Of a DNA stretch of 64,000 nt, positions 40,801 to 63,372 are shown one piece after another (the first letter of the stretch is position 1; every line of letters begins with the position of its first letter). The notes under the pieces are model-generated. The model was given only the letters and a program-made list of their open reading frames with translations. It was not told where the DNA came from and searched no databases. This DNA is from Liolophura sinensis (Eukaryota > Mollusca > Polyplacophora > Chitonida > Chitonidae): NCBI RefSeq assembly GCF_032854445.1, contig NC_088295.1:70103249-70167248 (forward strand). Reading direction: 5' to 3'. Made by a program: the position numbers and the translations under genes.

Positions 40801-42667
40801 AACAGATGCAGGCATGTGTTCATAGCTGAAGGCTACCTTTACTGTATTCTGTATAACTTCCAAAGAATCACACAGAATCCTAAAATAATCAGGAACACAT
40901 TTAATAACAGTTTTTCATTTATGCTTGCAATGTTTATTTCAGACCAAAAAATATATCTATACATGTAAATGAAATTAAGTACAGATTGGCACTAGCGTTA
41001 AAATTTATTTTACTTCAATGAGATTCTAAGCTGGCTAGAAACAAGGTTACAACTGTTCTAATCAGTGACAAATATACGTACACGGAATTCCTTTACTCGG
41101 TATAACGATTACTCTGACAAAATACATGCATTTATTAAAACCCATAAAGCTGGCGTGGTGGTGGATACATTAACATAGATTAAAATTACTACCCTTTAAT
41201 GTTAACTGGCATGCTAGATTCCTGCTGAAATATGCGTATATCTCTTCTAACAAAAATACCTGCTACTGACAACACGTACTCAACACGAATCTACACAAAC
41301 AAAATACACTTTACCTTGATTCTATGCTGTACCTTGAAATCAAATAACATACAACGTTGATACCACAAAAATGAGTCATCATTTACCTTAAAACAAACAA
41401 GCTTTATTTACCAGGTAAAGCATCACATCACATAAAATCACATAACATTTAATGAACAAGGCAAATTGAAATCAGGTAATAACCAAACAATAAAATAGCT
41501 TTAATGCAAAAAAACAAAAACAAACAAACAACAAAAAAAACCCCAAACAAACAAAACCAAAAAAAACCCATTAATTACCATTTTGTGTGAACAGGAAATA
41601 CTTGCGAATACAAACAGTGACAATGACTTATGACTAAAAATATTATGATACAAATTGTTCAATTACTGAAGTGAACTAACAGTGTGTTTACTATGTTACT
41701 GTACCATTGCGAAAAATACTAATACATACCTCTGTGAGTTTTGTCATCTCTTTTTATATATATCTCACTACAATAGAGTAAAGTGGAACTGGGTTCATTT
41801 TTATATGTATAAGAGAAAATGAAATTCAAGGAGTTTTTTGTCATTTTCAAGGCTAGTTTAAACATACCATGGTGCCAATAATGGACTATATTTTAAGTCT
41901 GAATTATAGATGCTTTAACTTGCATGCATGTATATTGAATAGTACCCTTGCTTTTGCAAGAAATATCTGCACTTCACCTCTGTAATGACCCGGCCTTGGC
42001 TCAGTTAAAAAAAAAATGAACAGCATATATCACTATGCAGTGCTTCGTCTGGGTCAATATTTTTTTCAGCCAGTCACTTAAGCCACTCAGATTTTGTAGT
42101 AAATACTATTTTTCTTTAGCCATACTTCCTTAGCGGCCATGACTTTTGTAGGTCTCCTTCTGTAATTCGTTTTTATCTGCTTTGGTGTAGCTTCTGGAAT
42201 CAGTTTGGTCTCTTCCAGCTTGATCTTGAGTTTATCAAACCTAACCTTTAGAACAATTGCCCTCAAAATAATGGACCAATGCTTGGTAGCGTGTATATGT
42301 TTTTTTTTTAAAAAAAAAATCATTCCTTTTTTAACCTATCTGTAGGATCCTAGTAAAATGTAATTTTACTAATGTAATCAGAAAAATTTGTTACGAAAAT
42401 AATTTGTAAATTCATTTTATTTAAATGCAACATTATGATCAGTACATTGAGTAACACAGTCTGACAGGAGAAAACCAGACGGCGTACACATTTATGTAAC
42501 GGCACATATTCTGCAACATTTAATTTACTTTGGATAGTTTATTAAGTGGAAAAGTTTAAATTTTTTATGGGAGGTAAATTCATTTACAGGTGTAACTCTA
42601 CCTTGATTTACTTATTTCCTTTGATAATTTTTTTTTCTTTTTTTTTTTTACAATTGGCGATGAAAGG

Positions 42668-42701
42668 ACCCCCCCCCCCCCCAAAAAAAAAAAAAAAAAA
42701 A
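42668..42701. repeat. C-run followed by A-run
   Basis: About 16 C followed by about 18 A. A similar C-then-A junction occurs at 25,782-25,808. Confidence 0.85.
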
Positions 42702-43117
42702 TGCCATGATTCTCATTCGTTATTAACAAAAATGATTTCAGGCGTTATTTAATGTAAGTCAATTTGCAACAATGCTGAACCACCTTCGTCATTTCTGTCA
42801 AGTAATCGTCATACAACAGTGTTGTTGTTATTTCACCGAGACGTGGCCGTTTGAAATGATGGTAAAATCTGCTGAAAAACCCAGAAAACTCTCATGGTAG
42901 ATTTTGTATAACGTTTGTATTTTTTCTTAAGCAAATAAATTTGTTGCCAAAAACATTCGCATTTTTTCAAATTTTATCGCCATTTCAAAATTTTTTTTCT
43001 AAATTTCCTACAAGGGCTAGTGCGAGCGGAGGCCCTGACTATAGCAGAATTATCAGTGAGCGCCCGATATACAGACTCGGCGGTCAGCAGACAATATTTA
43101 AGCTCGGGACAAACTAA

Positions 43118-43210
43118 GATTTTTAAGGAGTTTCCTGGAGTATTTGTCTTTTTTAAGGAGTTTCAAGTACTTGAAAATAAAATTGTATTTTTCAAGGAGT
43201 TTCAAGGACT
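43118..43210 (+). repeat. Three copies of a ttaaggagtttc motif
   Basis: 'tttttaaggagtttcctgga', 'tttttaaggagtttcaagta' and 'tttttcaaggagtttcaagg' within 90 bp. Short local repeat of unknown origin, downstream of CBS exon 15b. Confidence 0.55.
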
Positions 43211-43848
43211 GCGTGCACCCTGTCTATTCATCAAATGCAATCACATGTGCAGTATTACATTTAGACTGGTAACTATGTTCACCGATTGAAGTCATACAGA
43301 ATTTCTGATAGAGCTTCCAAAGATTGTACATTTGAGAATATAATCTATATCTCATGGGAGATAACTCTTGTGTAGCTTTATAAATGACAGTTATATTTAC
43401 TACCCTTGTACGGGCCTGAATATCCCCTCTCAGTGTGCTGTGTTTTCCATAACTCTTCCTCCATCAGTTGAAACTGTACACATCTAACATTATAATTTAG
43501 ATCACATTAACAATGTAAAATAAAAAGTCACATTGGTTATGGCTAAAACACTTTCAGAGAATTATTTATGAGGAAACATGTCATGGTGGCATCATGAGAC
43601 ATACCCAGGTATACATTCAAATACTACATTTTGCATATTCATGTGTATACAAATATAGATGTAAATGTCTGAATAGTGTATTTTAAACAAATCGAGCTTT
43701 GACCTACTCTCAGACAGAATTTAAAATATACATAGATATATATTTTGTCATTTACTGTGAGCGAGAATGTATAAGATGGAGGGAAGCAGAAATATATTGT
43801 ATCACATTTATACAGTGTAGAGACTTCGTTAGTAAGGGAGAAAACTCC

Positions 43849-43982
43849 TCAGATCTGGTCTGTTGTCAGGTGTGTTGTATGCACGTCTTGGGTTTCTCTG
43901 GTTGTGATGAAATTCACCAAATCGATGCGTGTGGCAATTCCAAATATCATTGTCTTGCGTGCCTCATTCCCATGACCAGAAT
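43849..43982 (-). CDS. CBS: CBS alternative last exon 15b (distal)
   Basis: Acceptor ttttattttgttcag, also phase 1, encodes 44 residues ending in [23 protein letters not shown] is plainly homologous to exon 15a (FGIATRID identical) but with a different lead-in ([10 protein letters not shown]) and a longer polar tail ([14 protein letters not shown]). It lies about 3.2 kb downstream of 15a, on the same strand, with an intact frame. Confidence 0.8.
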
Positions 43983-46900
43983 CTGAACAAAATAAAACAA
44001 AACACAAGTAAAAAAGACATTAAAACAAACACAAGCAAATCTGATTCAAGTAACTGAATTCCATCTCTCTGAAAGTAGCCTGTTTAAATGGAATCAGTGT
44101 TGCTGAGTTGTGTTATATACCTACCCACCCTGAGTAAAACTATCATCCTCTGGTAAGTAGCTAATAATCTTCCCCATGTGTGATGCACATATTGGCGGAG
44201 AGCAAGTTATCTCAAACAGGCCCATCTAACAGCCCTCAAATAGCCCTACAAGCTCTGTTGACTGCTTATTATCCCCAATACCCCAAGAGCAGTGGAAAAA
44301 TAAGATTCTTGAAAATTAATTGTCAGAGTCATGGACTGAACTTCAGGGGAAACATTTCCTCCCTGAAGTTTTTCAGGTGTAAGCAGTGTAACCTATTGTC
44401 CATTCATTCCTGCCTTTGAGAAGACTTCTTGTGGACAACCTGCATGGTGACGTACTACTCATGCGTTATAAGAGAACAGTGGTCCACTCAGCTTCGACAC
44501 AAGTCCCTACAGTGCAGGAAAAGGTACACCATCGTATCAGCATTGTAGTAATAAAACATAACTGAGATATCTAAATGAAAGGGAAGTGTCTGGAACAGTG
44601 ACTTTCATACATGGGTGTTATGCTTGAATAGCTAGGGAAAACTACACAGGTAAGGAAAGAATGCTGCGCATGTATAAGAGAATAGAAATGTTACGAGAAA
44701 GTGTAGTGCCTTTGGCAATCAAAAGAAACATGCAGGAGCATTGGGAAATCGAAAGAAACATGCAGGAGCCTTGGGAAATCGAAAGAAACATGCAGGAGCC
44801 TTGGGAAATCCAAAGAAACATACAGGATGCTTGGGAAATTGAAAGAAACATGCAGGACCCTTGGAAAATCTAAAGACACATGCAGGACCCTTGGGAATTT
44901 GAAAGAAAGAATAGGCAACTTGGCCACAGCTGCTGGAATAACCAGAGATTGCAAGTTAACTCATAGATGCTACATGTACTACATGTATCATGAAACTAAT
45001 GGTAACTAGGAAAACTCAGGAGGCTGGAAACCATAAAACAAAGAAGCTAGAGCAACCAATTAAGGCACAGTAAAAGTAATGGAGAAAACTTGAATTTTTA
45101 ATGTGTAGGTCATACTGGTAAATACAGATAAAGAAGGGTATAAGTTATGTGTTATTCTAGTTCTTAATGATAACAATGACCCTTGTTTGAGAAACTGACC
45201 GATTACTTGTTTATCTCTTGGCAAATATTGTCAGACATGGAGGAAACTGAACAGAGGATAGACTTCCATGAATGACTTCTTGCATACATGTACTTGTAAA
45301 GTATGTTCTTTAGTCCAAGTACAAACTTAAAACCACAAAGACATCCTGATACCCACTTTTGGCAGATTAGAGGGTTTCCATGACAACCATTTAACTGGGA
45401 CTTGCGTAAAAGGCTAAACGAACAGCTCATGGATGAAATTTGAAGTCTTATATCATAAATCATTAGCAAACATGTTCTTTAATTTAGCATTAGATATTAC
45501 TAACATAAATGCCATAAAACAATGTGCACATTGTGTACAATACATTGCATTTATTGGCTGTATTTTTATTGGTATAAATCGCCTGGAGTTATGTCAGTAA
45601 CAGCAATGAAATGTTGACATCAGATATGATATATTATTCTGGCCAAATATACGAGGCGTGATTTAATATTGGCATGAGGTATAACAATCAACAAATAATG
45701 CGTCATTATCCACTGGTCATAAACAATAGTGTACTTTGTAAGGGAGCTTACACATGTGTGCGTTTTTTAAGGAACCCGGTGTCGTAACACCACACAATTG
45801 CAAAAAAAAAAACAAAAAACGAAACATTCAAAAAATTCAAATAATCATTTGCAAGTACATGTAAACTGTCATGGCAGAATTCAAATATATCAATAAAACA
45901 AGTGTACAAGAATGGTAGTACCCTTGATACTGGCACATTGTCACCTGCCTTCAGAGAGTGAATACGGTTCAAATCTACAGTTTGTATACAATGTAGTTTA
46001 CAAAATAGCAAAATAATAAAGACTATGATAAAACATGCTGGAATAGAGATCCAGACATTTTGAAACTGTAAAAAAATTCCAACAATTGAAAAATTGATAG
46101 AATGCTTCCATGAATGCAAAATACACACAAAAATCTTGATTTTAGACTGAAGTCACATATTAAAGTTTGTTTGCCACTGAAGCCGAATCATAATTAATTT
46201 ACATGTAAACGATGTACATTACACATAAAAACTTGAATAATATAACTAACAACAGTGTAGAAATGTTACTTGTTTTATATCCTGCCACATGTTCTTTGAT
46301 GGAATAATAACTTCCCACTGAATCAGCAAAAACTTCATCACCTAATTTCCATAAATATACAACAGTCTCTTGAACAGAAGATAGTTCTGTTAAAGACTCA
46401 ACTTTCAATAAATTTTCACGTTGACTTGTAAAGGGACATACATGCAGGGGGAATACATGCAGCATTTGCCTCTAAGAGATGTATCTCACCAGATGAATAG
46501 AGTTGAGACATTTACAATCTACCTGTATGTTCAATGTGTTACGGCACACGGCATGTGTATGAGCTGATAACTTTATGTTTGTATGTATTTCAAAAATGAA
46601 CACACAGGTCACGATTTGACTGGCCCCGGTGAGTCCAACAATAATCACACTTGATCCATACAACGTGTACAAGTTACAAATCCACTGAAATTAACTTACG
46701 AACTACATGCAAGAACATGTAGATAAACTTATTCCCAAGAATTACAACAGTGGAAAGAAACCATGCCAGAATAAAGTGCGTAGGAAGGCTAATCTTAGGT
46801 AACATAGTAAACTTAAAAAAACTCAAAGAAAACAGAAAAAAACCCTGCAAAGATACACCTCTAATACCATAAATCCAGACCACATTTTACAACAAAGGAT

Positions 46901-49900
46901 ATGGATAATACATGTCATATGTGGAAAATCTGAGGGGTTAAAATGAAGTACAGAATGCAAACCCAACAACGAAACATACACCGAAACTGCACATTGCGTG
47001 CAAATAGTTTTCTTCTCATCGGTTTTTAAAATATTACAGATGTCCTCTTTTCTTCCAGATATATAGTTTGAAGTTCAAAGGCTAATACACTACTTTTGTT
47101 ACTGACATTTTACAAAGGTGCCTATGTTATTATTGTGTTTGTAGTATCAAACATTAGGGCCCTATTCATATTTGCCCCTAGTTGTGATAAAGGTCAAAAG
47201 GTCAATACGAGTGGCTATGCCAAAGATCATAACTTTTTTTTCAATCACACCATTTTCTGCATCTGAAACCAGCAAAAAATGAGAAGATTTACAATCCAGG
47301 GAGTTTTCTAGAATAAGACTCGAATGACAATTATAATCACAGATCTGGGCACTAAAAGTTACATGTCTTAATCAATACAGCAACTATGTAGACAGCCATA
47401 GGAAAAGCTTATAGTTATTGAGATCCAGACATTTTGAAACTGTTCACCTTCGAAACACAATTATAATCACAGATCTGGGTATTAAAAGTTACATGTCTTA
47501 ATACAGCAACTGCCTTGAAATGCCTATAGCTACTGAGGTTCAGTCATATTGAAATTATGTACCTTAATGTATCTTACAATGATGTTTTACTATTATGTTT
47601 TGAACAATATTAACACTGAAGAATCTATTTATGCTAAACACAGAACACAAAGATACATGGGTTAAATAAGAAAGCAGGGATATGTACTTATACACTGACA
47701 TCAACGGACAAGAATATATAAGCCAATAAGGTACCAGTGAACAGACATATGGACATATTAAGCAACACCTGTTCACTATAAAGACATCAACCCAATTGCT
47801 GTATGCATTTATGGACTAACTACCGGTGTACTGTATTGATTAAAATGTTTGCGTGTACTTATTACTTTCAATGTCTGACTGTTGTTTATATCAAATACAT
47901 GGGTGAGGATGCTAAGTGGGCCGGTGCAAACCATTGCCCTTTCGTAAGTCCATCATGATCTTTCCCATTTGTGAGGTACACAATTTCATGACATGTTAAT
48001 ATTTTTGAACAGGGGTGCTCACAAAATTCCAAATAGAAAGTTCTGCCAGTGGCACCATGTATCATATGAATGGTTTATTAACTGACTGGTGTGTTTAACG
48101 CCATACTCCATAATTTTTCAATTATACATATATGACATCAATCAGATCTATATGTGAAGGACCCCAGAATGTATGGTAAAAAGTACATAGATTCATCAGG
48201 TTTCTGACAGCCCTCCTGACCTAAAGCCACACACGAATCACTAAGAGCTGGGTTAGTACACTCAACCTCAAAGCCATGGGCCTGATGGTTGCAGTCAGCC
48301 AGCCCCTTAACGATATGACTCACACTTCATGTCTGTAGGTTCACTGAATATGGTTCATTAGCACTAAGAATGAACCATATTCACTGAATATGGTTCATTA
48401 GCACTAAGAATGAACCATATTCACTGAGTATGGTTCGTTAGCACTAAGAATGAACCATATTCACTGAATATGGTTCATTAGGACTAAGAGTATAACGTTA
48501 CATTTCAAATGTGCTTTCTGACCCGAGGAATTATCCAAGATTAATTGCACCAACTACACTGATATGTTCTGTGAATCCAACCACTGAGCTCATATGTCTG
48601 CAGTTTTACACAATTTGGCTCAGTAGTTTTGTAAATATCAGTAATGCAAGCAATGAAGTATAAAATGCCAATAGACAGTGGGTCAATGGTCAGTAAAACA
48701 GTGTTTGACAAGATTCACATTAGACAGGCTTCCTACTATTAAAAGTGTAATTATTGGCAGGACTCTGACAATACCCTTTGGTCCAAGTTGGCTGAAGAGT
48801 AAAAAACCTGATTTTAGGGCAGAAAGTCAATCTATCAATGCTCTGTGCAGTCAACTGACAAGATGAAGAGCAATTAATGGATATCCCCATACACCGTATA
48901 CAAATGACAAATACATTAATTTTGTGGTATGTTAGCACAATCAAGCAGGTCAAGTAGGTTTAGTAGCAACACACAAGACAGACTTTTACATAGAACCTGA
49001 GACATAGCACACTGCAAATAAACAGCAATACTCACATTGTCTTTGGTCGTGGACAACGAGAACAAAATGATCTGTGTCCAATAACCGGGACAAATGCCCC
49101 AGGGAGGTGTCCATGGAAATCTGAAACAGTCAAGGTGTTTAAACATTATGAACAGAAATTAAAGCTTTATTGCTTTTAGATTTTAATATTCATAAAAAGA
49201 TGTTTGAATGAAATACAAATAAACATGCACAAAACTCATGAGACTGTCACATAATGTTACAGACCAATACAAACTGGAGCTTCTCATATATGTCAGATGA
49301 TCTAAACCTAAGTAAATAGCTTTCGGTTCTGAAAATAAAAATTGCAGAGGTTTGTCAACTTTGTTAGATCATCATTCAAATCATTGTTTCTTGAATAACA
49401 GTACCTGTTTGAACTGTTTGTAGGTAACCTTGGAGACAGGGTCCGACCCTCTGACCTTGTTCTTGACAATTTGGGCCATCATGTTGCTAACGGTTACCAT
49501 GCCTTGCACAGTTCTGTAACATCGTGATAAAATCCAGTATGGAAACAATGTCTACACATATCAGGGTGACAAGGTAAAGGTGTTAAGTAATTTGAGGTGA
49601 GCAGAAGATAAGCGGTCCCCAATCCTTATGACAGTTTTGATAAACATGCAGATTTAGACAGGGTTGTTGGGAAACGTTGGGAATTTTGGGTGAATGCTGG
49701 GGATTTTGGGTGAGTGTTGGGGATTTTTGGTGAGTGTTGGAGATTTTGGGTGAGAATTGAGAATTTTCGATAAGTGGTGGGAGGTGGCTTAATTGATAAA
49801 GTCAGTCTCATCATTTTTTTTGCTTGCATTTGCTGGAGGAGATTATGGCACAATCCATATTTTTATTACAGCTGTTTACAAATTATAAATAGCTCACCCT

Positions 49901-52900
49901 GATTCATCCACGACAGGGACCTGGTCAAAGCCTTCCTTGTTCAGCAGGTCCAGAGTTTCCTGTATGGTCACACCTGGGCGAACTGTTAGTGGAGCAAGAA
50001 GACGCAGGGCACTGACCTTCAGGTTCCACCACCTGTTTACAACAAGAAACGTTCATTTGCTGTAGTGGACAAATGTGACTTTGCCAACCCAGCCACTGAA
50101 AAATTAAAAAATTTTCACTTAAAGCAGCAATATTACCTACCAAATTCACTACCACATCAAAATTTGAAAACACTTTAATACTCAAATATCTTCTGAATTC
50201 TTCACAACTTTATCTTCTTACTTTAATATAAGACATCTGTCATGCATAGTCCCTTTCATCCTTGAAGAAAGCAATGGTGCAACACATTTTATGACCGCCA
50301 CCGATCACAAGGGCAAAAAGGCTCTGTTTTCTAATGCAGCTGATCTTCAAAACATGTGCCGTGATTACAGTCTTTCAATCTTTAAGCATTCATTAAAAAT
50401 GAAAATACATGTATCTCCTTCGGGAAATGATGTGTTATACCTGGAAGATTAGAACAAAAAGCAGATATGCTATGATGATAACTGACCAGGCTTGAGACTC
50501 CTCAATGTTTTCATCTATCTTAATGAAGCCTCTCTGACTCATCCAATCATCACTCAAAAACTTTGTCCTGAAATTAACAAAAGTCACAACATCATTTCCA
50601 CATTCCCAAAATTTGTTCAGTCTACAAAAAAAATTTAGGTACAATTTTTGCACACTCATCACCACAAATTTGCAATGAAATGCAAGTGTTGGATTAACAC
50701 TGGTGGGTTAAATTTAAGCAAAAAGTACAGCATGAATGTGGTAGCATATTTACAACCTTTTGAGATTTTTTAAGGATTAAGTAACGAGGACCAAATTCAT
50801 TTCTTCATTTAATTTTTCTAAAATATACTCAATGCAGAGTAAAAATTTTTTTCTTCATAATTTTCCATCCTACATGGTAATGAACTAATTCTAGTGGGTA
50901 ACATACACTTAACAAGTTTTTTTTGCTGCTATCACTACTGCCCCACTAACACTATTTGTGCTACATAATCCATTTGCCACTACAAAATTATCTTTCTAAT
51001 ATAATGCTTTAATTACATAATTTGTTTCCTCTGTTTTCAAATTGCACCAAAGCCACAAAAAACGATATTCACATACATGTAATTCCTGACTGAGTCTGGC
51101 AAAATGACCACACACTTCTGGCCAGACTTCAGGTTAAAGTCCCGGACTGCCTTCAAAGCATTCGCCATGGCCGTTCCACTGCTGCCCCCTGGAGGTACAA
51201 CAAAGACAATCTGTGCTTACATAAAACTATATATACCTAACACCAAAGCAACTGAATTCATATATAAAATCTATATATAAAATTCATATATATTCATACA
51301 ATGCACGAGTGGCAAAGCAAATTTTCTTTTGTGGAATGTTTTAACTGCTTATCAGATATGCAGTGTATAACTTTTTCTACCCTATTATTATGGCCAAGCG
51401 CCGTCATACAAGTGAAATATTCTTGAACACACACCAAACACCAATCAAATAAATAAAATAAATCAAGACCCAGAGATTGTGAAAAAGAAACACGCCACAA
51501 AATGAAGGAGTTTAAGGTTTACTCAGATGGCTGATTTTTGAACATGTTCCGGGGATTCTTACCACAGAGTAATCCTTCCTCTCTCATCAACCTCCTCGCC
51601 ATCACAAATGATTCCTTATCTACAGACTTGTACCATTTGTCTACCAACTGCAGAGAAAAGTATTACAGATGTTTATTTATTTGGCAAAAAAGGCAGAACA
51701 CAGGATTGCCTTTTAATGTATATGTTGTTTGGGAAGTACTTATGACATCAGAAAGGTTTTTCTATTGCAGCAGTTTAACTTCAACAGTACAGTGGATGTA
51801 ACTGTATATATACACATCACCAGACCTACCAAAATGTTCACCTGTTTTTACAGGGAATTATTACAATATGGGGATATATTTCTTCTACGGGGCATTTCCC
51901 TCCATTAATGAACATCTATTCTTGTATTTTGCAAAGTGTTCTTACAGAAAATCTCCACGCAAAATTTTTCGATCCTTCATCACAATTGTTGTAACAACAA
52001 CAAATCTGCGTGTATCTTTGAATACCAGCATAAGGTACACATGTTAACTTGTGTCTCAGACACTATGGTTTGTCTACTGCAGGAGCCTGTGCCAGGTGTC
52101 CTGTTATCCATGTGGTTAACTACCACCTTGGTTTACTGTAGTAGATTACATGTTGTCCACTTTCACATTTGTCCACCACAGCAGGTTACATGTGTTAACT
52201 TCCACTTTGTTCACTACCATAGGTAACGTGTTAACTTCCACTTTGTTCACTACAGCAGGTTACATGTGTTAACTTCCACTTTGTTCACTACCATAGGTAA
52301 CGTGTTGACTTCCACTTTGTTTACTACAGCGGGTTACATGTGTTACCTTCCACCTTTGTTCGCTACAGTAGGTTACATAGAGGATATACAATGCGTGTAC
52401 AAGAGTATGCAATTCATGACCCATTTTATCAATTTTATTAAACAAGTGGTGTAATTTTCCAATGTTCTGAGCCTTTGGCGAAGGACAATGGAAAATTACT
52501 TCCTGAATTTGATAAATTTGATATAATGGGTCATGAATTGCATATCCTATTTATCCTATAATTTATTCTGAGCGGATTAAGGTGGTTGACAGAGAGGTCA
52601 ACGTCTGTTGTTTTAACAAGTATGTAAATGAGATGCGTACTGATATCGATATATGTGAAACGGTTGAAGGCAAACCAAACATTTCTGTAAATACAGTTCT
52701 AGAAAACATTGAGAAAACCTGTGATTTCTGTCAACAGAAAACATAACACATTAGTGTGCTGTAAGACGACGAGCTTTGATTTTTTCAAAAAGGTTGGCAT
52801 TCATAACTGCTCATTTATTAAAACATTTGACTCCAAATTTGTGACATAAATCTTGGTCATATTCCTATGATGTCATGCCAAGTCTTGCAGGTTGCGAGGA

Positions 52901-55900
52901 GCTGTGATTTCGAAAAATCATACTGAACGAAATATTCAAATTTAGGCTTTTTACACGAACAATTCACCTCAAAACTTATTTGCTGCACTAACTGACCATC
53001 ATGGAACTTGGAGAATTCAACAAAACAGTGTCTACGATGTCTTTAAGGGCTTGATTTTGGTTCTGTTTTGGATTTTCTGTGTGATGGTAGACGTGATACT
53101 GGATCAAAAGGTCACAGTGAGAACAGTTATCATGTTCGATACAGAATGGACTAGATCTAAGAATAATTGCTAGTCTCGCTATTTTCTCACCACATCAAAC
53201 AATAGAAGTCTGGTATGCAGTTGTACTTTTTCATTGGATAAGCTTGTCAGTGAAAGTCAGGTGATCAATCAAAAGTTTGGGTTATTTATACAACGCTTGG
53301 AATATTGAAAATTTACACCACTGTTGTTATATCACTGATAAAGGCAAATTATGGGATAAATGTGGTCAACTTCCACCTTTGCAACTGAAGAAATGTTTCT
53401 TTAAAACTGCATGTGACAGAGACAGGTAGACTTCTTGGCGAAGAAATATCAGTCCACTGTGTTACAAGAATGTTTGGTTTCAGTAGCATTTTCCTTTTTA
53501 TTCAATATTCTGTCGGGCCGGGATAACTACACATCGATCATTAAATGAAACTTACTTGAGGGAGTTCAGTCTGCACATGTGAGTGCATGCGCATCCCATT
53601 CAAGGGAAACAACTGAGGGAAAGCATTCAGTCTGTGCATTTAGATTTTCATGTGTGTGTCTTGAGTTGCTCCCTATTACACCTGTGACGCCATTTGCAGT
53701 CCTCCAGCAGCAAAGTTAGCAATGCGGTCCTACAGATGTACATATCTGAGGCAATAGGAAGAGGCCGGGGCTAAAGCATTTTTCCTAATGAAAATGGCTT
53801 CTTGCAGATCTAATTTTGCCGTTGTTATGATAACTGAAGTGTGTCCTTTGGAAGTGTGTTGTTCGGGCCGAAAATGCTGAAGTCTTGCAACAACATTTTG
53901 ATTATAGGAAGGCCATGTAAACTTATTGAGCCTATCTGTCGCTGCAAAAGGTGAACTTTTTTATGGCCTGTCCCCTAGAAATACTGCCTACCGTGGACAG
54001 GTAGACAGGCGATATCAAGATCCTTGCCTTTGTCCAATACAGTAGGTTACATGTGGTTAACTTCCACTTTCCCCTTTTGTCGACTAAAGTATTGTACATA
54101 AGGTTTATTAACTTACACTTCTGTCCAGGACAGTCGGGACAAAGTCATAGCCAATTCCTTCCACTTCATAGAAGCTGGTGTCACTAATGTTGAGAGAGTC
54201 TGGCTCTGCTAACAGAGACCCCATGGGGTCTACTCCAATAATCTGTGGAAAGCATGATAAAATAAACATACAAAATAACCATAAATACCCTAAATGACCT
54301 AAACTTTCGCCCACAGAAATGCATTTTTAGGGGCAAATAATTGTCACAAAATATTATTTTTGATGCTGAAACTTACAATTTTCCAGTAGAATATCATCCC
54401 ACGTTCCAAGCAAACCTCAAACTTAGCACGACTCACAGAATCAAGAAAAATGTGCAAGTTCCTTTAGTGTAATGTGATATTTGTTGTGTCAGTGATATAC
54501 ATATTTATAATGCTTGTAATGTTCCCATGTATTATGTTAGCACACGGTGAATGTAGATCGTCATAACTCCAATAAGTATTTGTAATTACATGTACATGGA
54601 AATATAGAGCAATAAGTATTATTTTGCAGTAATGAGACTGAAGGTCAGACACTCACCTTACAGTTGGGGCAGGCCTCCTTCACTTTACGAGCCACACCTG
54701 TGAGAGTGCCACCTGTCCCAGCCCCCATCACCACCATGTCAACTTGACCTGACAGACACATGACAAAATCAGCCCTCTGGTGACTATGATCAATACAAGC
54801 AGATTTTCCTATGCACAATGTACATGTTACACAATAATCATATTTATGTTATAATCAGGGGATTATTACATGTTTTATGCTTCTCTTACACCAAGTAAAT
54901 ACATACATGTTTGAAAGGTGCTGATACATGTGCAGATTTCTTTTCTTAATAAATGAGATAGACAACTGGCTTTGTTAACCCTTTAAGCCTAGAAGTCTAG
55001 CTTCATCTGCCAAATAAAACTATACACAACATACATAATAACATGCATATCTGCGACAATACTTGAGGATTTTTGAGGACCTTTTACTTCAATTTTCAAA
55101 ATTAAGCCCATTTATAAGTGCAACATAGATACTGATTAATAAGGGAGATGGGGAAAACACTAATAAATGCAAATGAGACATCAGCCTGGTTAAATCTGTT
55201 AAGTGCAATATTTTGTACACAGTCTGTAATCTGTCATTTGTTCCCATGTCATTTGACAGATTACGTAAGAGATACAGGTCTCCTAAAGTAGCACAAGTCA
55301 TATACTTTCCTTGCAGCATCTGAATAAGCTATATTTATCACGCTTCCTGACTGTCTAAAGATAATTTGAAGGCTTGGCTGTCAATCTGTCAATTACATCT
55401 GAGCCTGCAATTTCTTGATAACATGGATGAACTCATGAACTGCCAACAAATAATGTCAAGCACCATGATAGTCTTGTTCATAAATGGTTAAAATGAAACA
55501 AAAGATATCACACACTTACCATCACAAGCTTTTAAAATCTCTTCTGCTGTCCCATCATAATGAGCCAATGGATTGCTGGCATTTCGGTACTACAAAACAC
55601 ACATCAAATGGTATTAGAAGCATACACATGCAATACTATACTTTAGGAACAACCTTCTGTACAAACTTTTCCATGTTGCTCCTATGCCAAAGTAACTTTT
55701 ATGCATGAACTCTCAATGAATGTTTGATAGGAGATGTTAATGTACAGTGTAGATACATTAATAGTTTCCGACACAAATAGGCCATAATTCCTCTTACACT
55801 GAAAAATTCATGTGTGTTTGTGATAGAATCTTTTGTCAAAATCCTCTAATGAATTTCATTTCATTTCAAACATGTAATGATAAACTGATTTATGCTATTG

Positions 55901-58900
55901 TTCATTAAATGGGTACCAGTGTTTTTCCAAGAACAGACGAGTCAATGAAGAACAGACAGGTGAGTTAAGGACTGGGTCAAAGTTTACACATCGCACGACT
56001 CACAGGTGGATTGTAGATACAATATGTACTTGGTGTTCACTTCTGATACAGTGATACAGAGCATCTGGGTCAAGGTAACATACTAGTACAAAAGGTCTTT
56101 GTCTGACCTCATTCTCACTAAACTAGGTCAGAAAAGCATAAAGAGGGCACTCTACTTCACTGCATGACACCAGGAAACATGAAACATAAAGTGGAGCATA
56201 AACCAGCAACTATATTCAAGACTTATTACAAACAATCCAAAGCAATAATAATGTTTAACTCATTTATGAAAAATATTGGTTTATTGGATGCATTTTTAGT
56301 TTAAAATGAGTTTTTTTCAGCAAATACAAATTCAGAGAACAAACCAGATCATAATTTTACACTTTTGTTGCTTGATTTTATGACTTAACATCTCTTCAGC
56401 TCTAAGAGAACTCCAGATCAACATAGTGCCTTTGTATTACACGTACCAGTCCCAGTGCCTCCTGGGAGGCGACACTCAGTGCCACATCTAATGGCCAGTC
56501 ATGGTCAGTTGACAAGTCTGACTTGGTGCCTCCTTTCAGGTTAGACCATATGCTTTCGTTCACATGTGGAATGCACTGTGAGAGTATTGTATACAGATTC
56601 TATGCAAGCCTACCTGATCTAAGATGTGAGAGTTTGGTATTTCTTCCATCAGACGCCTCGCCACCCCGATGTGGGACTCTGGGGAGTCAAAGGCAGCACT
56701 GGTAGGGGTACGCACAATCTCAGCACCTAAAGCTCGAAGAACATCCACCTGAAAGTGAGAGAAGTAAATGTTTTTTTATCATTTGTCATGTTGGCTTGAG
56801 GCAATATTCTATGAAAACCACTGTCTTAATCAAAATGGAATTGCATTACAAGCTAGGATTATTATTTATTTATTTGATTGGTGTTGTATGCCGTACTCAA
56901 GAATATTTCACTTATAGGACGGAGGCCAGCATTATGGTCAGAAGAGACCGAGGGGTGAAGCCCAGGGATAACAATGATCATTAAAACACATGTAATCTTT
57001 TGTAACAATCTGTGTCCAATTTACCCATACTTGCGGTACACTTTAATGTAGCCTGTGTATGTGATCCTGCATGTTGGAACAAACCAATGCTTCTTATCAT
57101 ATCTTGGAGTTGGATTAGAGTCAAAGGTAGACATAAGGTGAGGGATAGTGCCATAACAGCAAGTTATATATGATACAAAGTTTTTCAAGTAATCCACATG
57201 ATCAAATTAGAAACTTATACATTATCCACATATATGTAATTTCCAAAAGTTTCATTTAGGATAATAATGCTTGAAAGTTGCACTATACCTACATTACCTT
57301 TACACCTAGGGGGAATTAATATGAAACCATAATGACACTGGTCAAGTTATAATCAGCTGTAATCTAGAATACTGTATCTACAAATAACTTCAGTGTAAGA
57401 TAAGCATGACAAATTTTCAGAGTTCTTATGGCTCATTTGCACTTCATATCTTTACCGTACATATGCCATTTGCAGTCTTATATACTTATCAACCTGCTAA
57501 CCCAAATCATCAGTAACAGGACATGAGCACATTATGTTAGACTGATTTTCCTGAACAGGATATGTTGTATTAATTTCAGTAAATCATGCCCTGTTTTGTA
57601 TTATCAAATAGGATGCTACAGCCATTGACCAGGGTACATGTACATAGTTGACAGCTGCAAAAGCTGTGCGTGCAACAGACATTACTGTACAGCACTCTGA
57701 ACAAATTTATGAAATATAACGGTGAAACAATGACTGGACTGAAACTGTCAGATTATGTAACTAAGCTAATAAAACAGAAATGAATTTAAAGAATTAAACT
57801 GACTTTTTCATTAATGGGAAGTCCTTGCAGTCTTATCAATATGATGCATATTTTCCATCAGCAATTGATGAATTTCACAATGTGACATCAGGTGCAGGTC
57901 ACTTGCTTGTATAGCAGCATAGACTTAATCTTGATGTCACTGTGTTCACAACCTACATAACCAGCCTAGCTTGACCGTCTAAACAAAGTATACAAGAGTG
58001 AGTGAGAGGGTGCTTAGGGTTTGACGTCGTACTTAAAAATTTTTCAGTCACATGACGATGAAGGAATCCTTAGATTGCATGCAATGTGCCTCCTTGTTGC
58101 AGAACGGATTTCCATCGCTCTTTTATCTAGTGATGCTTCAATGAGACTCCTAACGGAAGGCAAGTAAGCGACCCCGCCCCAGGCATTACACTGGATATGG
58201 GTCAACCAGTCAATGCACTATCCCCTTCCTGCTCAACGCCAAATGAGGAAGTTACAACTTTCTCTTTTAAGGTCTTAGGTGTGACTTGACCCAGGATTGA
58301 CCCTGGAACTACCGCTCCCAACGCAGACACTCTACCAACTGTGCTATCAGGGCCATCAAATATACAAGACAGTTGTCATAATATCCTTTACCTGACCAAA
58401 TTACTCAACATACAAATGTAAATGTACATATAGGAGTCTGATTTCAGTGACAATGCATATGGAAACTGTAATTTTGCAGGATACAGAATGAAAAAATGTA
58501 CAAATGGTCAATGCAATCATTAATCACTCGTAAAATATGCGTATGTCCACAGAGGTGTGAAGTGATATAAATGGCCTAAATTATCAAAGATATATTTGTA
58601 CTGAACTACAAATCTATCTATAGCAAACAAGAAAAAAGGGAGATTATTACCATGTCTTTTTTTTCTGCATGTATATCTGTGAAAATCATTACGTGATCTG
58701 CCTTATGACGTTATATACACTAGCCCTACAAGACAGAAGTGCCAGCCTACTTGAAATATCTGTGCAGGACAAGAGTGCAGAGGGAATAAAACTGCCTACC
58801 TTTTCCATGCTCATCTTCTCTGGCATGACTATGATACACCTGTAGCCCTTGACAGCTGCCCCCAGCGCAATACCAATACCTGTGCACGGTCATCAGCAGA

Positions 58901-60785
58901 GAGAATAGCATAATTCATATCATTACTGTGATTACCAGTATTCTGAAATATCCCTGCACAATACATGCCTGTCGTATCATATCTGACCCTCTCATATTGG
59001 TCTTTTAAAAATGTATGGAACTTGTAAGGTACAATATCATACTAAATATGTCCACCAACTTTCAATGACATATATATTTAAGGATAGCTAAAAAAAATTG
59101 TAGAAAAATTTAAACGCCACCAACAAAATCAAACTTGTCATGTATCAGATTATACTAAGCACATGTTCCAATTAAAAATATTCAAGGGTAGCATAAAAAA
59201 AAATTGCAGGAAATTGAGAAGGGGACAGAGAGACAAGCTGAAAACTTGTACCTTCAAATATCGCTGAAGGGATTATAATAATCATAAATATGTGACAGTG
59301 TCAACAAAACTGGCAAGAGCAATATACTGCATGCACTGGAGAAAAATGAAAACCATGATGGCCCTGAAAAGCTTATGTATTCCTTTTCTTTTCCTCTTTA
59401 TTTAAATCACACACATCAAAATCCTGAAGGCAATTAACACACCTGTGTTGCCAGAGGTAGGCTCAATGATTACATCGCCTTGCTTGAGTGCACCCATCTT
59501 TTCAGCATCCTCAATCATACGTAACCCAATTCTGTCCTTCACACTACCTCCAGCATTGAAGAACTCACACTTGGCCACTGTATTAGGCAAAAACTATATA
59601 TCAATTTTAACTTTCAAGAGTGAGTGTACTAATAAAATTCTATCTTCATCAGAATGTGCAATGTAAGAATATACGACAAAAAAAGAAAAAAAAAATCCAT
59701 TACATCTTACACATACGATTCTTAACATGTGTATACTTAATAATTTCATGAAACTATGCCAATTTTAAACATCCTGGGTCATCCTTGTTAAAGTACAATC
59801 CTGGGTCATCCTTGTTATAGTACAGATGCATATCTGAATTTATGCATTTATTTCCATAAATATACCAGGTAGGACTAAAAGCATGAGCTGAAGAAGACAA
59901 ATAATCAGGATTTTTGTCACCTACAAAGATCACACTCTATTCCTTCCTTCTGTGTGATTCGGTTAATTCGCACCAATGGGGTGTTGCCGATGTTATAGAG
60001 GATGTTGGGTAAGATAGAGGGACATTCTCCACTGCAAATATAACATGAACAAATGGTTTACATACCATTCAAGTAGCAATTACATATTTTATTATTTCCC
60101 AGGAAAATAAATATGAACCACTTATACAGCCTACATGTATCTCGGTGTGGTATATATGAAACCACATATATCTTCTTGTCTTCAAGAATAGTGGTCACAA
60201 ATAAACATCCCATCCCTAAAACTGATCATGAAGTGAAAGAAATACCATAATGATGGATAATGATACAATAACATAGAAGTATAGAAGTAAGACTTAGCTG
60301 AAGCCGTTCTACAGTATAGAAGTAAGACTTGGATGGAGCTGTTCTACAGTATAGAAGTAAGACTTAGATGAAGCTGTTCTGCAGTATAGAAGTAAGACTT
60401 AGATGAAGTCATTCTACAGTATAGAAGTAAGACTTCGCTGAAGCCATTCTACAGTACAGAAGTAAGACTTTGCTGAAGCCATTCTACAGTATAGAAGTAA
60501 GACCTAGCTGAAGCCATTCTACAGTATAGAAGTAAGACTTAGCTGAAGCCATTCTATAGTATAGAAGTAAGGCTTAGCTGAAGCCATTCTAGTCTGAAAC
60601 CACCAAATGTCTTACTTTTTTATCTGTGAATGAGGTGAGTCTTGCTTGGTTTTGGACTGGTGGTATGTACAGCGACTGACCAGGTCGGGTCGCTTCCAGT
60701 CTCGGAACGGGCTTGTGACCGGACCAGAGCCATTCCACTCTTTCACTGGCACTTTCTTAGCCTCTTTTAAACCAACTTTGGACAT
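43849..60785 (-). CDS. CBS: Cystathionine beta-synthase with two alternative last exons
   Basis: PLP- and haem-dependent enzyme condensing homocysteine with serine to cystathionine, first step of transsulfuration; also a source of H2S. Shared coding exons (minus): 60,785-60,616; 60,031-59,925; 59,577-59,443; 58,879-58,800; 56,748-56,614; 55,589-55,520; 54,748-54,657; 54,242-54,117; 51,647-51,563; 51,188-51,077; 50,567-50,487; 50,032-49,898; 49,513-49,405; 49,120-49,036. Last exon is either 47,262-47,162 (540 residues) or 43,982-43,849 (551). Every junction is GT-AG and in phase. Haem ligands Cys39 and His52 keep the 13-residue spacing of human Cys52/His65; PLP lysine is Lys106 in [17 protein letters not shown], phosphate loop [10 protein letters not shown], a CPNC redox-type Cxx[15 protein letters not shown] and CGGSSGTAM follow. 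The Bateman pair begins around [20 protein letters not shown] and continues [21 protein letters not shown] and [10 protein letters not shown]. Start is uncertain: in-frame ATGs also occur at 60,812 and 60,863. Confidence 0.95.
44727..44915. repeat. 30-bp minisatellite, about six copies
   Basis: Unit ttgggaaatcgaaagaaaca then tgcaggagcc, six copies with substitutions. Period is a multiple of three, so both strands show open repeat peptides ([20 protein letters not shown]). Lies between CBS exons 15a and 15b. Confidence 0.9.
47162..47262 (-). CDS. CBS: CBS alternative last exon 15a (proximal)
   Basis: Acceptor ctggtttcag, entered in phase 1, encodes 33 residues ending in TAG: the part [20 protein letters not shown] corresponds to the end of human CBS (MVFGVVTAIDLLNFV). 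The T-x-I-D that I recall contacting the AdoMet ribose in human CBS (Thr535, Asp538) is kept. The tail is short (KYE). See 43,849-43,982 for the competing exon. Confidence 0.85.
47325..47560. repeat. Local tandem duplication, about 125 bp unit
   Basis: 'aattataatcacagatctgg' then 'aaaagttacatgtcttaa' and 'tacagcaact' occurs at 47,330-47,388 and again at 47,459-47,512, each followed by a related 'ctatagctactgagg'/'ttatagttattgaga' segment. Located in the CBS intron just upstream of exon 15a. Confidence 0.75.
48071..48140 (-). mobile_element. SINE tail fragment
   Basis: 'gtgtttaacgccatactcca' then 'taatttttcaattatacata' is a decayed minus-strand SINE 3' end in a CBS intron. Confidence 0.5.
48341..48490. 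repeat. 40-bp tandem repeat, each unit a perfect hairpin
   Basis: Three full units and one partial. Each unit contains atatggttcatt and its exact reverse complement aatgaaccatat around a nine-base loop (agcactaag), so the array is a row of identical stem-loops. One unit has a single arm substitution (ggttcgtt). In the CBS intron before exon 15a. Confidence 0.9.
49659..49780. repeat. ~20-bp minisatellite
   Basis: About five copies of ttttgggtgagtgttgggga with substitutions, in the CBS intron between exons 12 and 13. Confidence 0.85.
51384..51465 (+). mobile_element. SINE core/tail fragment
   Basis: 'ttattatggccaagcgccgt', 'catacaagtgaaatattctt', then 'aacaccaatcaaataaataa'. Lies in the CBS intron between exons 9 and 10. 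Confidence 0.75.
52128..52378. repeat. ~36-bp minisatellite
   Basis: Repeated 'ttacatgtgttaacttccac' then 'tttgttcactacagcagg', alternating with a 'ccataggtaacgtgttaact' variant; about six units. A lone related piece sits at 54,043-54,075. In the large CBS intron 8. Confidence 0.85.
52406..52544. mobile_element. 139-bp fold-back (MITE-like) element
   Basis: Imperfect palindrome over its whole length. The outer 18 bases tatgcaattcatgaccca (52,406-52,423) are exactly complementary to tgggtcatgaattgcata (52,527-52,544); inner parts also pair (gtaattttcc with ggaaaattac; gcctttgg with its near complement around 52,475). Such self-complementary short units are typical of MITEs or fold-back transposons. 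Clear target-site duplication was not found. Confidence 0.7.
52545..54110. other. Large CBS intron 8, remainder
   Basis: About 1.5 kb with no exon, repeat or RNA gene that I can support. Base composition is less AT-rich than flanking introns and no tandem repeats occur until 54,043, so it may be an unrecognised inserted element together with the fold-back at its edge. Confidence 0.35.
56860..56970 (-). mobile_element. SINE core/tail fragment
   Basis: 'tatttatttatttgattggt', 'gccgtactcaagaatatttc', 'ggccagcattatggt' then a decayed 'agaccgaggggtgaagccca'. In CBS intron 4, about 110 bp upstream of exon 5 on the minus strand. Confidence 0.8.
57996..58354 (-). mobile_element. Long tRNA-headed SINE, third family (~360 bp)
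   Basis: Minus strand starts with a good tRNA-like head: ggccctgatagcacagttgg, tagagtgtctgcgttggg, and B-box side tccagggtcaatcctggg. The body has 'gtaacttcctcatttggcgt' and 'gcctgggg', and ends in 'accctctcactcactc' instead of an AAAT tail. Its body does not match the 26,051 family. In CBS intron 4. Confidence 0.75.
60281..60595. repeat. 35-bp minisatellite, about nine copies
   Basis: Unit agtatagaagtaagacttag then ctgaagccattctac, nine copies with a few substitutions; ends about 20 bp before the donor of CBS exon 1 on the minus strand. Such a close array could affect splicing of that exon, which is only speculation. Confidence 0.92.
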
Positions 60786-60863
60786 CTTCAAACAGAACAA
60801 ATTGGTCATTGGTATATCCTGAGCCTTCCAGTTCCCTCCACTTATAAAAATGACCGCCATCAT

Positions 60864-61970
60864 AGGCGTGAAAAATTTGTATATATTTCAATAAACAATA
60901 ACAAATAAAGGACACACTTTGAAAGTCTATCCTAGCAGAGGGTCCAGAGGGTGCCTAGGCCCCAGAAGCTCCATGGCCCTAAATTGTCATACAGCTGAGT
61001 TTTCAACCATTCAAAGTTAATTGGTGCCCCGAGATGAGGGGTCTTAAAAAGTATTAGATCTGGATATGCTGGATCAAATGTTCTCACGTAAAAGTGCATA
61101 TCTGGGCCACCACTTGGAAAGCTGGGTAGCCCCGATCCAATGCCACTGGGTGTTATTGTTCTTTCTTAGCACACACCTCCAGATATACTAAATTTTTTAG
61201 GATTTTAATTTTGATAATGTCATATATTCCTCCACATTTTCACATATAACTGAACCACTTTCAATGAGATTTGTGCACTTTCTTCATTTGCTTTCAGATA
61301 GAAAAAGTACAATGGTTGGAACAAAAACAGAACAAATTTGAAAGATGTAAAACTCCTTTGGGAGAGATATTCAACTGCTTCGGTTTATAGCTTAATGTGT
61401 TTGCTCCTGAAGGCCATCGTTATCATTTTTTAAAGATCACATGAACTTGAACAAAGACGCCATTGATAGTGACACACAACAGGTTGTTACAGAAGGCAAT
61501 ACATGTACATTACACACTGTCCTATTTAAATGCCTCTACCAGCTGTATTGGAAAGAGATAATAAACCAGCTAACATCCTGATGTGTAACAGGTCAGCTGG
61601 TACTGTACACACTGTGGATTGGCACTCAATATATATATCATAGGTATCTGTGGCTGTAAGTGAACAGACACGTACATGTATATGACATTGTGGACTGGCA
61701 GCTAATACACCCATATATGTTAGTAAAGGCTACTGGTCTGGCACTACATACATATGTATATGTGGACTGGCAACCGAATCGGCTGTATTTTAAATGATGG
61801 GGTAACAGTGCCTGATGTGTTACAAGTACATGCTTGATACTGGTTGCTGATACAGCACTGAGCAACTTTTGGTCCACATTGCATGCTTATTTTTGGTACC
61901 AGTACATAGACATAGAATTTTACGGGAACACCTTAACAAGTGTTGTGTTGTACAAGTATGTAAATGAGTA
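60864..61970. other. Upstream of CBS, no gene seen
   Basis: Presumed CBS 5' UTR and promoter. A weak degenerate repeat of 'tgtggactggca' with 'catatatg' pieces lies at 61,610-61,770. No clear TATA or CpG-rich block. Confidence 0.4.
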
Positions 61971-61977
61971 TGGAAAC

Positions 61978-63372
61978 CTCTATGACGAAGAGAATTTGGA
62001 GCTGGTATGATGGTATTGGAGAACTACTGATGGTACTAGGGGACTGAGAGCTGGTATGATGGTATTGAGGGACTGCTGATGGCACTGCAGGACTGAGAGC
62101 TGGTATGATGGTATTGGGGGACTGCTGATGGTATTGGGGACTGCTGATGGCACTCCAGGACTGAGAGCTGGTATGATGGTATTGGGGGACTGCTGATAGT
62201 ATTGGGGACTGCTGATGGCACTGAGGACTGAGAGCTGGCATGATGGTATTGGGGACTGCTGATGGTATTGGGGACTGCTGATGGCACTGAGGACTGAGAG
62301 CTGGCATGATGGTATTGGGGGACTGCTGATGGCACTGCAGAACTAAGAGCTGGTATGATGGTACTGGGGGGCTGGCATGATGGTAATGGGCAACTACTGA
62401 TGGCACTGGGGGACTGAGAGCTGGTATGATGGTATTGGGGGACTGCTGAAGGCACTGGAGGCCTGAGAGCTGGTATGATGGTATTGGGGACTGCTGATGG
62501 CACTGCAGGACTGAGAGCTGGTATGGTAATGGGCAACTACTGATGGCACTGGAGGACTGAGAGTTGGTATGATGGTATTGGAGGACTGCTGAAGGCATTG
62601 GAGGCCTGAGAGCTGGTATGATGGTATTGGAGGGCTGCTGAAGGCACTGGAGGCCTGAGAGCTGGTATGGTAATGGGCAACTACTGATGGCACTGGAGGA
62701 CTGAGAGTTGGTATGATGGTATTGGAGGACTGCTGAAGGCATTGGAGGCCTGAGAGCTGGTATGATGGTATTGGAGGGCTGCTGAAGGCACTGGAGGCCT
62801 GAGAGCTGGTATGGTAATGGGCAACTACTGATGACACTGGAGGCCTGAGAGCTGGTATGATGGTATTGGAGGGCTGCTGAAGGCACTGGAGGCCTGAGAG
62901 CTGGTATGGTAATGGGCAACTACTGATGGCACTGGAGGCCTGAGAGCTGGTATGGTAATGGGCAACTACTGATGGCACTGGAGGCCTGAGAGCTGGTATG
63001 ATGGTATTGGAGGACTGCTGAAGGCACTGGAGGACTGAGAGCTGGTATGGTAATGGGCAACTACTGATGGCACTGGAGGCCTGAGAGCTGGTATGATGGT
63101 ATTGGAGGACTGCTGAAGGCACTGGAGGCCTGAGAGCTGGTATGGTAATGGGCAACTACTGATGGCACTGGAGGCCTGAGAGCTGGTATGATGGTATTGG
63201 GGACTGCTGATGGCACTGGAGGCCTGAGAGCTGGTATGGTAATGGGCAACTACTAATGGCACTGGAGGCCTGAGAGCTGGCATGATGGTATTGGAGGACT
63301 GCTGAAGGCACTGGAGGACTGAGAGCTGGAATGATGGTATTGGGGGACTGCTGATTGCACTGGAGGGCTGGA
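61978..63372. repeat. ~1.4 kb minisatellite of 46- and 49-bp units
   Basis: About 30 units of two interleaved types that share ctgagagctggtatg: type A (49 bp) continues atggtattggaggactgctg; type B (46 bp) continues gtaatgggcaactactgatg. Both end ggcactggaggc. A and B alternate in the right half; the left half is more diverged and A-rich. Overlapping minus ORFs up to 328 codons (Pro/Ser/Gln-rich) are repeat artefacts because 46 and 49 are not multiples of three. Confidence 0.93.

Follow-up and report, generated by a model that had tools for sequence, protein, structure and literature searches.

We analyzed a window of 64,000 nucleotides from the chiton Liolophura sinensis (contig NC_088295.1, positions 70,103,249 to 70,167,248); "window" here means that whole stretch of DNA. 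It holds a single complete gene for cystathionine beta-synthase (CBS), on the minus strand, in which 14 common exons are followed by either of two alternative last exons, 15a and 15b. Both joined frames are complete, giving an isoform a of 548 residues (1,647 nucleotides with the stop codon) and an isoform b of 559 residues (1,680 nucleotides with the stop codon). The isoforms are identical through 515 common residues and the tyrosine that follows, and they differ by the last exon only. Exons 15a and 15b are intact, anciently duplicated terminal exons under constraint.

Two intact last exons entered in the same phase

Exon 15a (47162-47262, minus strand, 101 nucleotides) encodes a loop of 10 residues, a core of 18 residues and the tail GKYE, and ends in a TAG stop codon. 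Exon 15b (43849-43982, minus strand, 134 nucleotides) encodes a loop and a core of the same lengths and a tail of 15 residues, and ends in TGA. Counted from the equivalent of human Tyr518 to the C terminus, this makes 33 residues in 15a and 44 in 15b. The original prediction, made from the sequence of this locus, had described different lead-ins and different tails. The lead-ins do differ, with only 2 of the 10 loop residues shared, and so do the tails; however, the tails that follow the shared TTR are 4 (GKYE) and 15 residues long, not 3 and 14.

Both exons would be joined to the exon 14 donor at 49,036 (AAT/GTGAGT, phase 1), across acceptors that end in TTTCAG for 15a and GTTCAG for 15b. Because exon 14 leaves a T and both last exons begin with AT, the split codon is TAT in either case and encodes the tyrosine that aligns with human Tyr518. 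The exon 14 donor scored 8.3, and leave-one-out scores of the gene's 14 donors ranged from -1.1 to 10.3. The matrix for scoring acceptors was built from the other 13 internal acceptors of the gene, a small set with leave-one-out scores from -11.3 to 12.4. By this measure the 15a acceptor (12.7) and the 15b acceptor (10.4) ranked first and second of 350 minus-strand AG dinucleotides between about 42,000 and 49,000. The margin of the 15b acceptor is thin, since the third-ranked AG scores 10.2. Each member of the candidate pair has an acceptor, the same phase and a stop codon of its own; coordinates, phase 1 entry from 49,036, acceptors and homology are all as originally predicted. Open frames in the surroundings of 15a and 15b had no Pfam match. 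Two AATAAA hexamers on the minus strand (45550-45570, with first bases at 45570 and 45555) are candidate poly(A) signals for the 15a mRNA.

The exons are homologous, old and constrained

The 18-residue core of 15a, compared with positions 42,001-47,100, gave a score of 79, against a maximum of 32 in 60 single-base shuffles. GIATRID is present in both exons, in agreement with the prediction that they are homologous and end the second CBS domain. In the genome as a whole (609,464,459 bases in 632 contigs), the 15b peptide matched 15b and 15a alone. Outside the exons this likeness disappears: in ungapped comparison 23 of 60 nucleotides are alike upstream and 16 of 60 downstream, and blastn of the two neighborhoods returned only one 24-nucleotide repeat, unrelated to the exons. 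The blastn result and the failure of the flanks to align therefore fit an old duplication. The 24-nucleotide repeat is exact and direct and flanks 15a, with one copy in the preceding intron (47443-47420) and the other in the presumed 3' untranslated region (UTR) of 15a (46069-46046). We also looked for further duplicated CBS exons by running tblastn with both isoforms against the window, and rejected the idea: each common exon matched at one place, 15a and 15b were recovered, and the other matches were at chance level (E of 0.27 or worse).

The core runs for 18 codons, from MIFG to TTR. Its two copies differ at 15 of 54 nucleotides and yet agree at 16 of 18 residues. The differences fall at 12 third, 2 first and 1 second positions; third positions are changed in 12 of 18 cases and first or second positions in 3 of 36 (Fisher P = 1.6e-5). 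Over 19 codons, the proportion of synonymous differences (pS) was 0.94, which is saturated and too high to correct, and that of nonsynonymous differences (pN) was 0.10. When an equal number of differences was placed at random over the same 19 codons, a mean of 8.6 residues was kept, and the observed 16 was never reached in 20,000 trials.

Might one of the copies have drifted freely? We applied a stricter null in which a given share of the differences arose on an unconstrained copy. A share of one half was rejected, both over the 18 codons (P = 0.0044) and over the first 12 (P = 0.013). Smaller shares gave P = 0.12 at 35% and P = 0.29 at 25% over the 18 codons, and P = 0.049 at 35% over the first 12. 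The test covers 18 codons of one exon pair. Because the half-differences null is rejected, neither copy has been free since the duplication, provided that the two diverged at similar rates. The alternative originally offered, that 15b is a relic, is disfavored by this result, although the test leaves room for one exon having recently fallen out of use.

From Tyr518 up to the core, the loop has diverged without any change of length. First and second codon positions are changed in 12 of 20 cases in the loop, whereas only 3 of 36 are changed in the core (P = 5.8e-5). The two exons also share residues that are absent from human CBS (GIATRID where the human protein has GVVTAID, and FITTR where it has FVAAQ). 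Since both copies have these residues, the terminal exon was probably doubled after this lineage had separated from the vertebrates, barring gene conversion.

The exon swap would alter a probable assembly loop and the tail

We mapped the differences between 15a and 15b onto human CBS. They fall at positions 519-528, within and just after the oligomerization loop, in the C-terminal tail and at two core residues. In human CBS, filaments are reported to form chiefly through the loop at 516-525, which clasps the next dimer (PMC10995199). Tyr518 fits a pocket of that dimer formed by Leu423, Val425, Ile429 and Ile437, and a second contact is made by packing of Leu419, Leu492, Met529 and Phe531 (PMC10995199).

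In both isoforms of the window protein the Tyr518 equivalent is tyrosine, and the pocket (423, 425, 429 and 437) consists of Leu, Val, Val and Leu. The equivalents of Leu419, Leu492, Met529 and Phe531 are Leu, Met, Met and Phe; in all, eight further interface residues besides Tyr518 are kept or conservatively changed relative to human CBS. The distance from Tyr518 to Met529 is 12 residues in 15a, in 15b and in human CBS, and the glycine aligned with Gly522 is kept in both exons. The chiton enzyme thus resembles the filament-forming human CBS in loop length, in Tyr518, Gly522, Met529, Phe531, Leu419, Leu423 and Val425, and in its hydrophobic pocket. It differs, as far as sequence tells, in having Arg for Ile516 and Glu for His433. 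Speculatively, these two residues could form a compensating charge pair at a filament interface.

The AdoMet contact residues are common to both isoforms

The human S-adenosylmethionine (AdoMet) site, S2, is made up of FDQ at 443-445 and GVVTAID at 532-538, with contacts at Thr535 and Asp538 (PMC4276868). In the window CBS, FDQ lies in common exon 12, and GIATRID, with the equivalents of Thr535 and Asp538, is encoded by both 15a and 15b. The AdoMet contacts are therefore equal in both isoforms, and both are expected to bind AdoMet. The original prediction had placed the exons at the AdoMet-regulatory site and had proposed isoforms with different allosteric control. The location is correct in that the region borders the S2 site, of which human GVVTAID forms one wall (PMC4276868), but a difference between 15a and 15b there is not supported. 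With the contact residues the same, the notion that the exons differ in AdoMet binding was weakened; what differs instead is the loop at 519-528 and the tail. Fly CBS is reported to carry Val at the Phe443 position (PMC4133348), unlike the window enzyme with its FDQ motif.

The common exons and the surroundings of the gene

The common exons span 60,809 to 49,036 with GT-AG junctions throughout. The coding part of exon 1 lies at 60616-60809; its start codon was chosen and the 5' end is provisional, homology to human CBS beginning at query residue 38. The gene model then places exon 2 at 59925-60031, exon 3 at 59443-59577, exon 4 at 58800-58879, exon 5 at 56614-56748, exon 6 at 55520-55589, exon 7 at 54657-54748, exon 8 at 54117-54242, exon 9 at 51563-51647, exon 10 at 51077-51188 and exon 11 at 50487-50567, all on the minus strand. 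Exon 12 (49898-50032) carries the CBS1 motif, the residues of the Tyr518 pocket and the FDQ motif, as placed by the gene model and the human CBS alignment. It is followed by exon 13 (49405-49513) and by exon 14 (49036-49120), the last of the common exons; its final base, in phase 1, is the T that opens the codon equivalent to human Tyr518.

The identity of the gene is clear from its product. Against human CBS, residues 38-548 of isoform b give a match with E = 1.2e-226, and the protein contains the pyridoxal phosphate-dependent catalytic domain (Pfam PALP, PF00291, at 7e-71). Window residues align with human Cys52 and His65, which we take to be the heme ligands. The human CxxC motif (CPGC) is retained as CPNC in exon 7. 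As for the Bateman module, CBS1 exceeds the Pfam cutoff at residues 420-466 and CBS2 aligns with human CBS without gaps; Pfam reported no CBS2 motif in either isoform. We found no second CBS locus, the catalytic exon peptide matching this place alone in the 609-Mb genome, where masked or missing stretches could hide others. A CBS-domain family search of the genome, which scored the best candidates only, omitted the window CBS gene.

Just upstream of exon 1 is a minus-strand open frame of 77 residues (60935-61165) with no Pfam match, and farther upstream a large minisatellite (61999-63370) of about 29 copies of a 49-bp family unit. Minisatellites also occupy CBS introns at 60278-60591, 52109-52378, 49676-49782 and 48340-48489 (the last in intron 14, upstream of 15a), and another lies between 15a and 15b at 44708-44908.

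Discussion

We favor, with middling confidence, the reading that both 15a and 15b are functional, that any one message ends in one or the other of them, that the pair goes back to an ancient tandem doubling of the terminal exon, and that the choice swaps the assembly loop and tail of CBS. Use of the 15a acceptor with polyadenylation before 15b would yield the 548-residue isoform, and skipping of 15a would join the donor at 49,036 to 15b and yield the 559-residue isoform. The choice would be a competition of the 15a acceptor and its poly(A) site with the 15b acceptor. The isoforms would share the catalytic and AdoMet-binding parts, including the GIATRID end of the second CBS motif. If the loop clasps the neighboring dimer and builds filaments as in human CBS, they may differ in the strength of assembly or in the choice of partner; such a difference could alter stability or turnover rather than AdoMet binding itself. 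From these sequences we expect a difference of degree or of partner choice, not an on/off switch.

Several observations weigh against this interpretation. Two isoforms could be made from intact, in-phase duplicated exons by alternative splicing or polyadenylation, as originally predicted, but the use of both exons we infer from the genomic DNA of one species. AATAAA and ATTAAA hexamers are not above chance after either exon: 5 were found between 15a and 15b, where base composition predicts about 4, and 5 after 15b, where it predicts about 7. We dropped the hexamers as an argument for use of the exons on that account. Filament formation by the window CBS is not assured, because human Ile516 is replaced by Arg (exon 14, 49036-49120) and the pocket residue His433 by Glu (exon 12, 49898-50032). 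A human enzyme with Ile516 changed to glycine is reported to form mainly dimers with AdoMet regulation unaffected (PMC13396399). Since both exons keep Tyr518 and the loop length, the difference in assembly may be small. The divergence of the loop may reflect weak constraint alone, or the tail may be the part that matters. Finally, recent disuse of one of the two exons may have occurred and is compatible with the constraint test (P = 0.12 at 35%).

Is one of the exons, then, simply idle? One exon could carry essentially all expression, the other being an unused or decaying leftover of the duplication. A copy free for about one-third of the differences is not rejected over the 18 codons (P = 0.12) and is at the borderline over the first 12 (P = 0.049), and the 15b acceptor stands barely above the third-ranked AG. 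However, the test rejects, over both lengths, a copy that has been unconstrained ever since the duplication, and neither exon has lost its frame, stop codon, acceptor, loop length, Tyr518 or Gly522. We regard an idle copy as unlikely, though a serious candidate. It is fairly improbable, in our judgment, that both exons are used and differ only in expression, through alternative polyadenylation and two 3' UTRs attached to nearly equivalent proteins. The core, with 16 of 18 residues the same, and the retained loop length and Tyr518 suit such an arrangement, and the two messages would differ in their 3' UTRs because the 60 nucleotides after the stops do not align. Yet if the UTR were all that mattered, it would be hard to see why 8 of 10 loop residues and the tail are different, though a weakly constrained surface loop could drift in this way.

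The remaining two explanations count for far less. A fair splice donor at 47,107 lies 55 nucleotides beyond the 15a stop; its score of 7.7 falls between the lowest and the highest scores of real donors in this gene. If 15a were sometimes internal, with this donor joined to 15b, isoform a would be made from a message with a spliced 3' UTR, possibly subject to nonsense-mediated decay. This donor is a candidate read from the genome, and we consider such splicing very improbable. An assembly artifact, or haplotype copies placed in tandem, is a general risk in a heterozygous genome, and nothing beyond that general risk speaks for it here. Published heterozygosity is about 1.24% in Liolophura japonica, the likely species (PMC11068029); 15a and 15b, by contrast, are mismatched at 15 of 54 core nucleotides, their flanks are unlike, and only the terminal exon was found to be doubled. 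With a divergence far above heterozygosity, we rejected an artifact as having next to no probability.

The putative pair of functional last exons has partial counterparts elsewhere. Other genes, too, are known to have duplicated alternative last exons. Rat CBS, reportedly in Swaroop et al. 1992, has mutually exclusive exons. In human isoform 2, 15 residues from an alternative exon 15 replace Tyr518, and the enzyme is described as mainly dimeric and AdoMet responsive, with a half-life of 6.6 h compared to 13.3 h for the filament form (PMC13396399). The major isoform of rat and mouse is similar to human isoform 2, with serine instead of tyrosine (PMC13396399). Should this serine derive from the split tyrosine codon, the mammalian intron would have to follow the first base of that codon, at the same place and in the same phase as in the chiton. 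Chiton and mammals are thus alike in splice variation at the Tyr518 codon that alters the oligomerization loop, observed in mammals and predicted from the genome in the chiton. They differ in that mammals add an internal exon, which lengthens the loop, removes Tyr518 and disrupts filaments (PMC13396399), whereas the chiton has doubled the whole terminal exon, keeping length and Tyr518 and changing the tail too.

Insect and yeast CBS are described as essentially without the loop, and filament formation may not be conserved between species (PMC13396399). The window enzyme is the same enzyme as these, with the same C-terminal pair of CBS motifs, but it has the loop (PMC13396399, PMC4133348). IMPDH1 is likewise a filament-forming metabolic enzyme with a Bateman domain and splice variants, which are reported to have different termini and to respond differently to a phosphomimetic change (PMC7176436). 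It is, however, another enzyme with another interface, and its variants carry extensions, not duplicated exons (PMC7176436). Among prokaryotes, we used a conserved catalytic stretch of 61 residues as the query and took the best 80 of at least 556 loci. An open frame of at least 250 residues with SGNTG was found at 77 of these, and the 28 frames of at least 420 residues were aligned; the 49 shorter frames and the 3 loci that had no such open frame were dropped. None of the 28 has the loop; hence, a loop of human length in 15a and 15b is no general feature of the fold. A scan of viral contigs found no relatives of the last exons, and a scan of prokaryotic genomes found none of the whole protein. 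Among titles and the beginnings of abstracts in the open-licence PubMed Central literature, we found no report of a molluscan CBS exon pair. Splice variation at the Tyr518 codon was already known in mammals.

CBS filament formation was itself reported only recently, in the human enzyme (PMC13396399), and RNA sequencing data from five tissues of L. japonica (digestive gland, foot, gill, gonad and heart; BioProject PRJNA973839) are described as public (PMC11068029). A wider proposal, which we offer tentatively and think on balance unlikely, is that codon 518 is a recurrent switch point of assembly. A mollusc would have independently doubled its terminal exon to make loops of equal length that favor different or separate filaments, so that splicing would set CBS polymer, stability and hydrogen sulfide output in each tissue. 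The chiton gene, with a loop of human length in two constrained versions that enter at the codon of mammalian splice variation, offers a natural experiment on the function of this loop.

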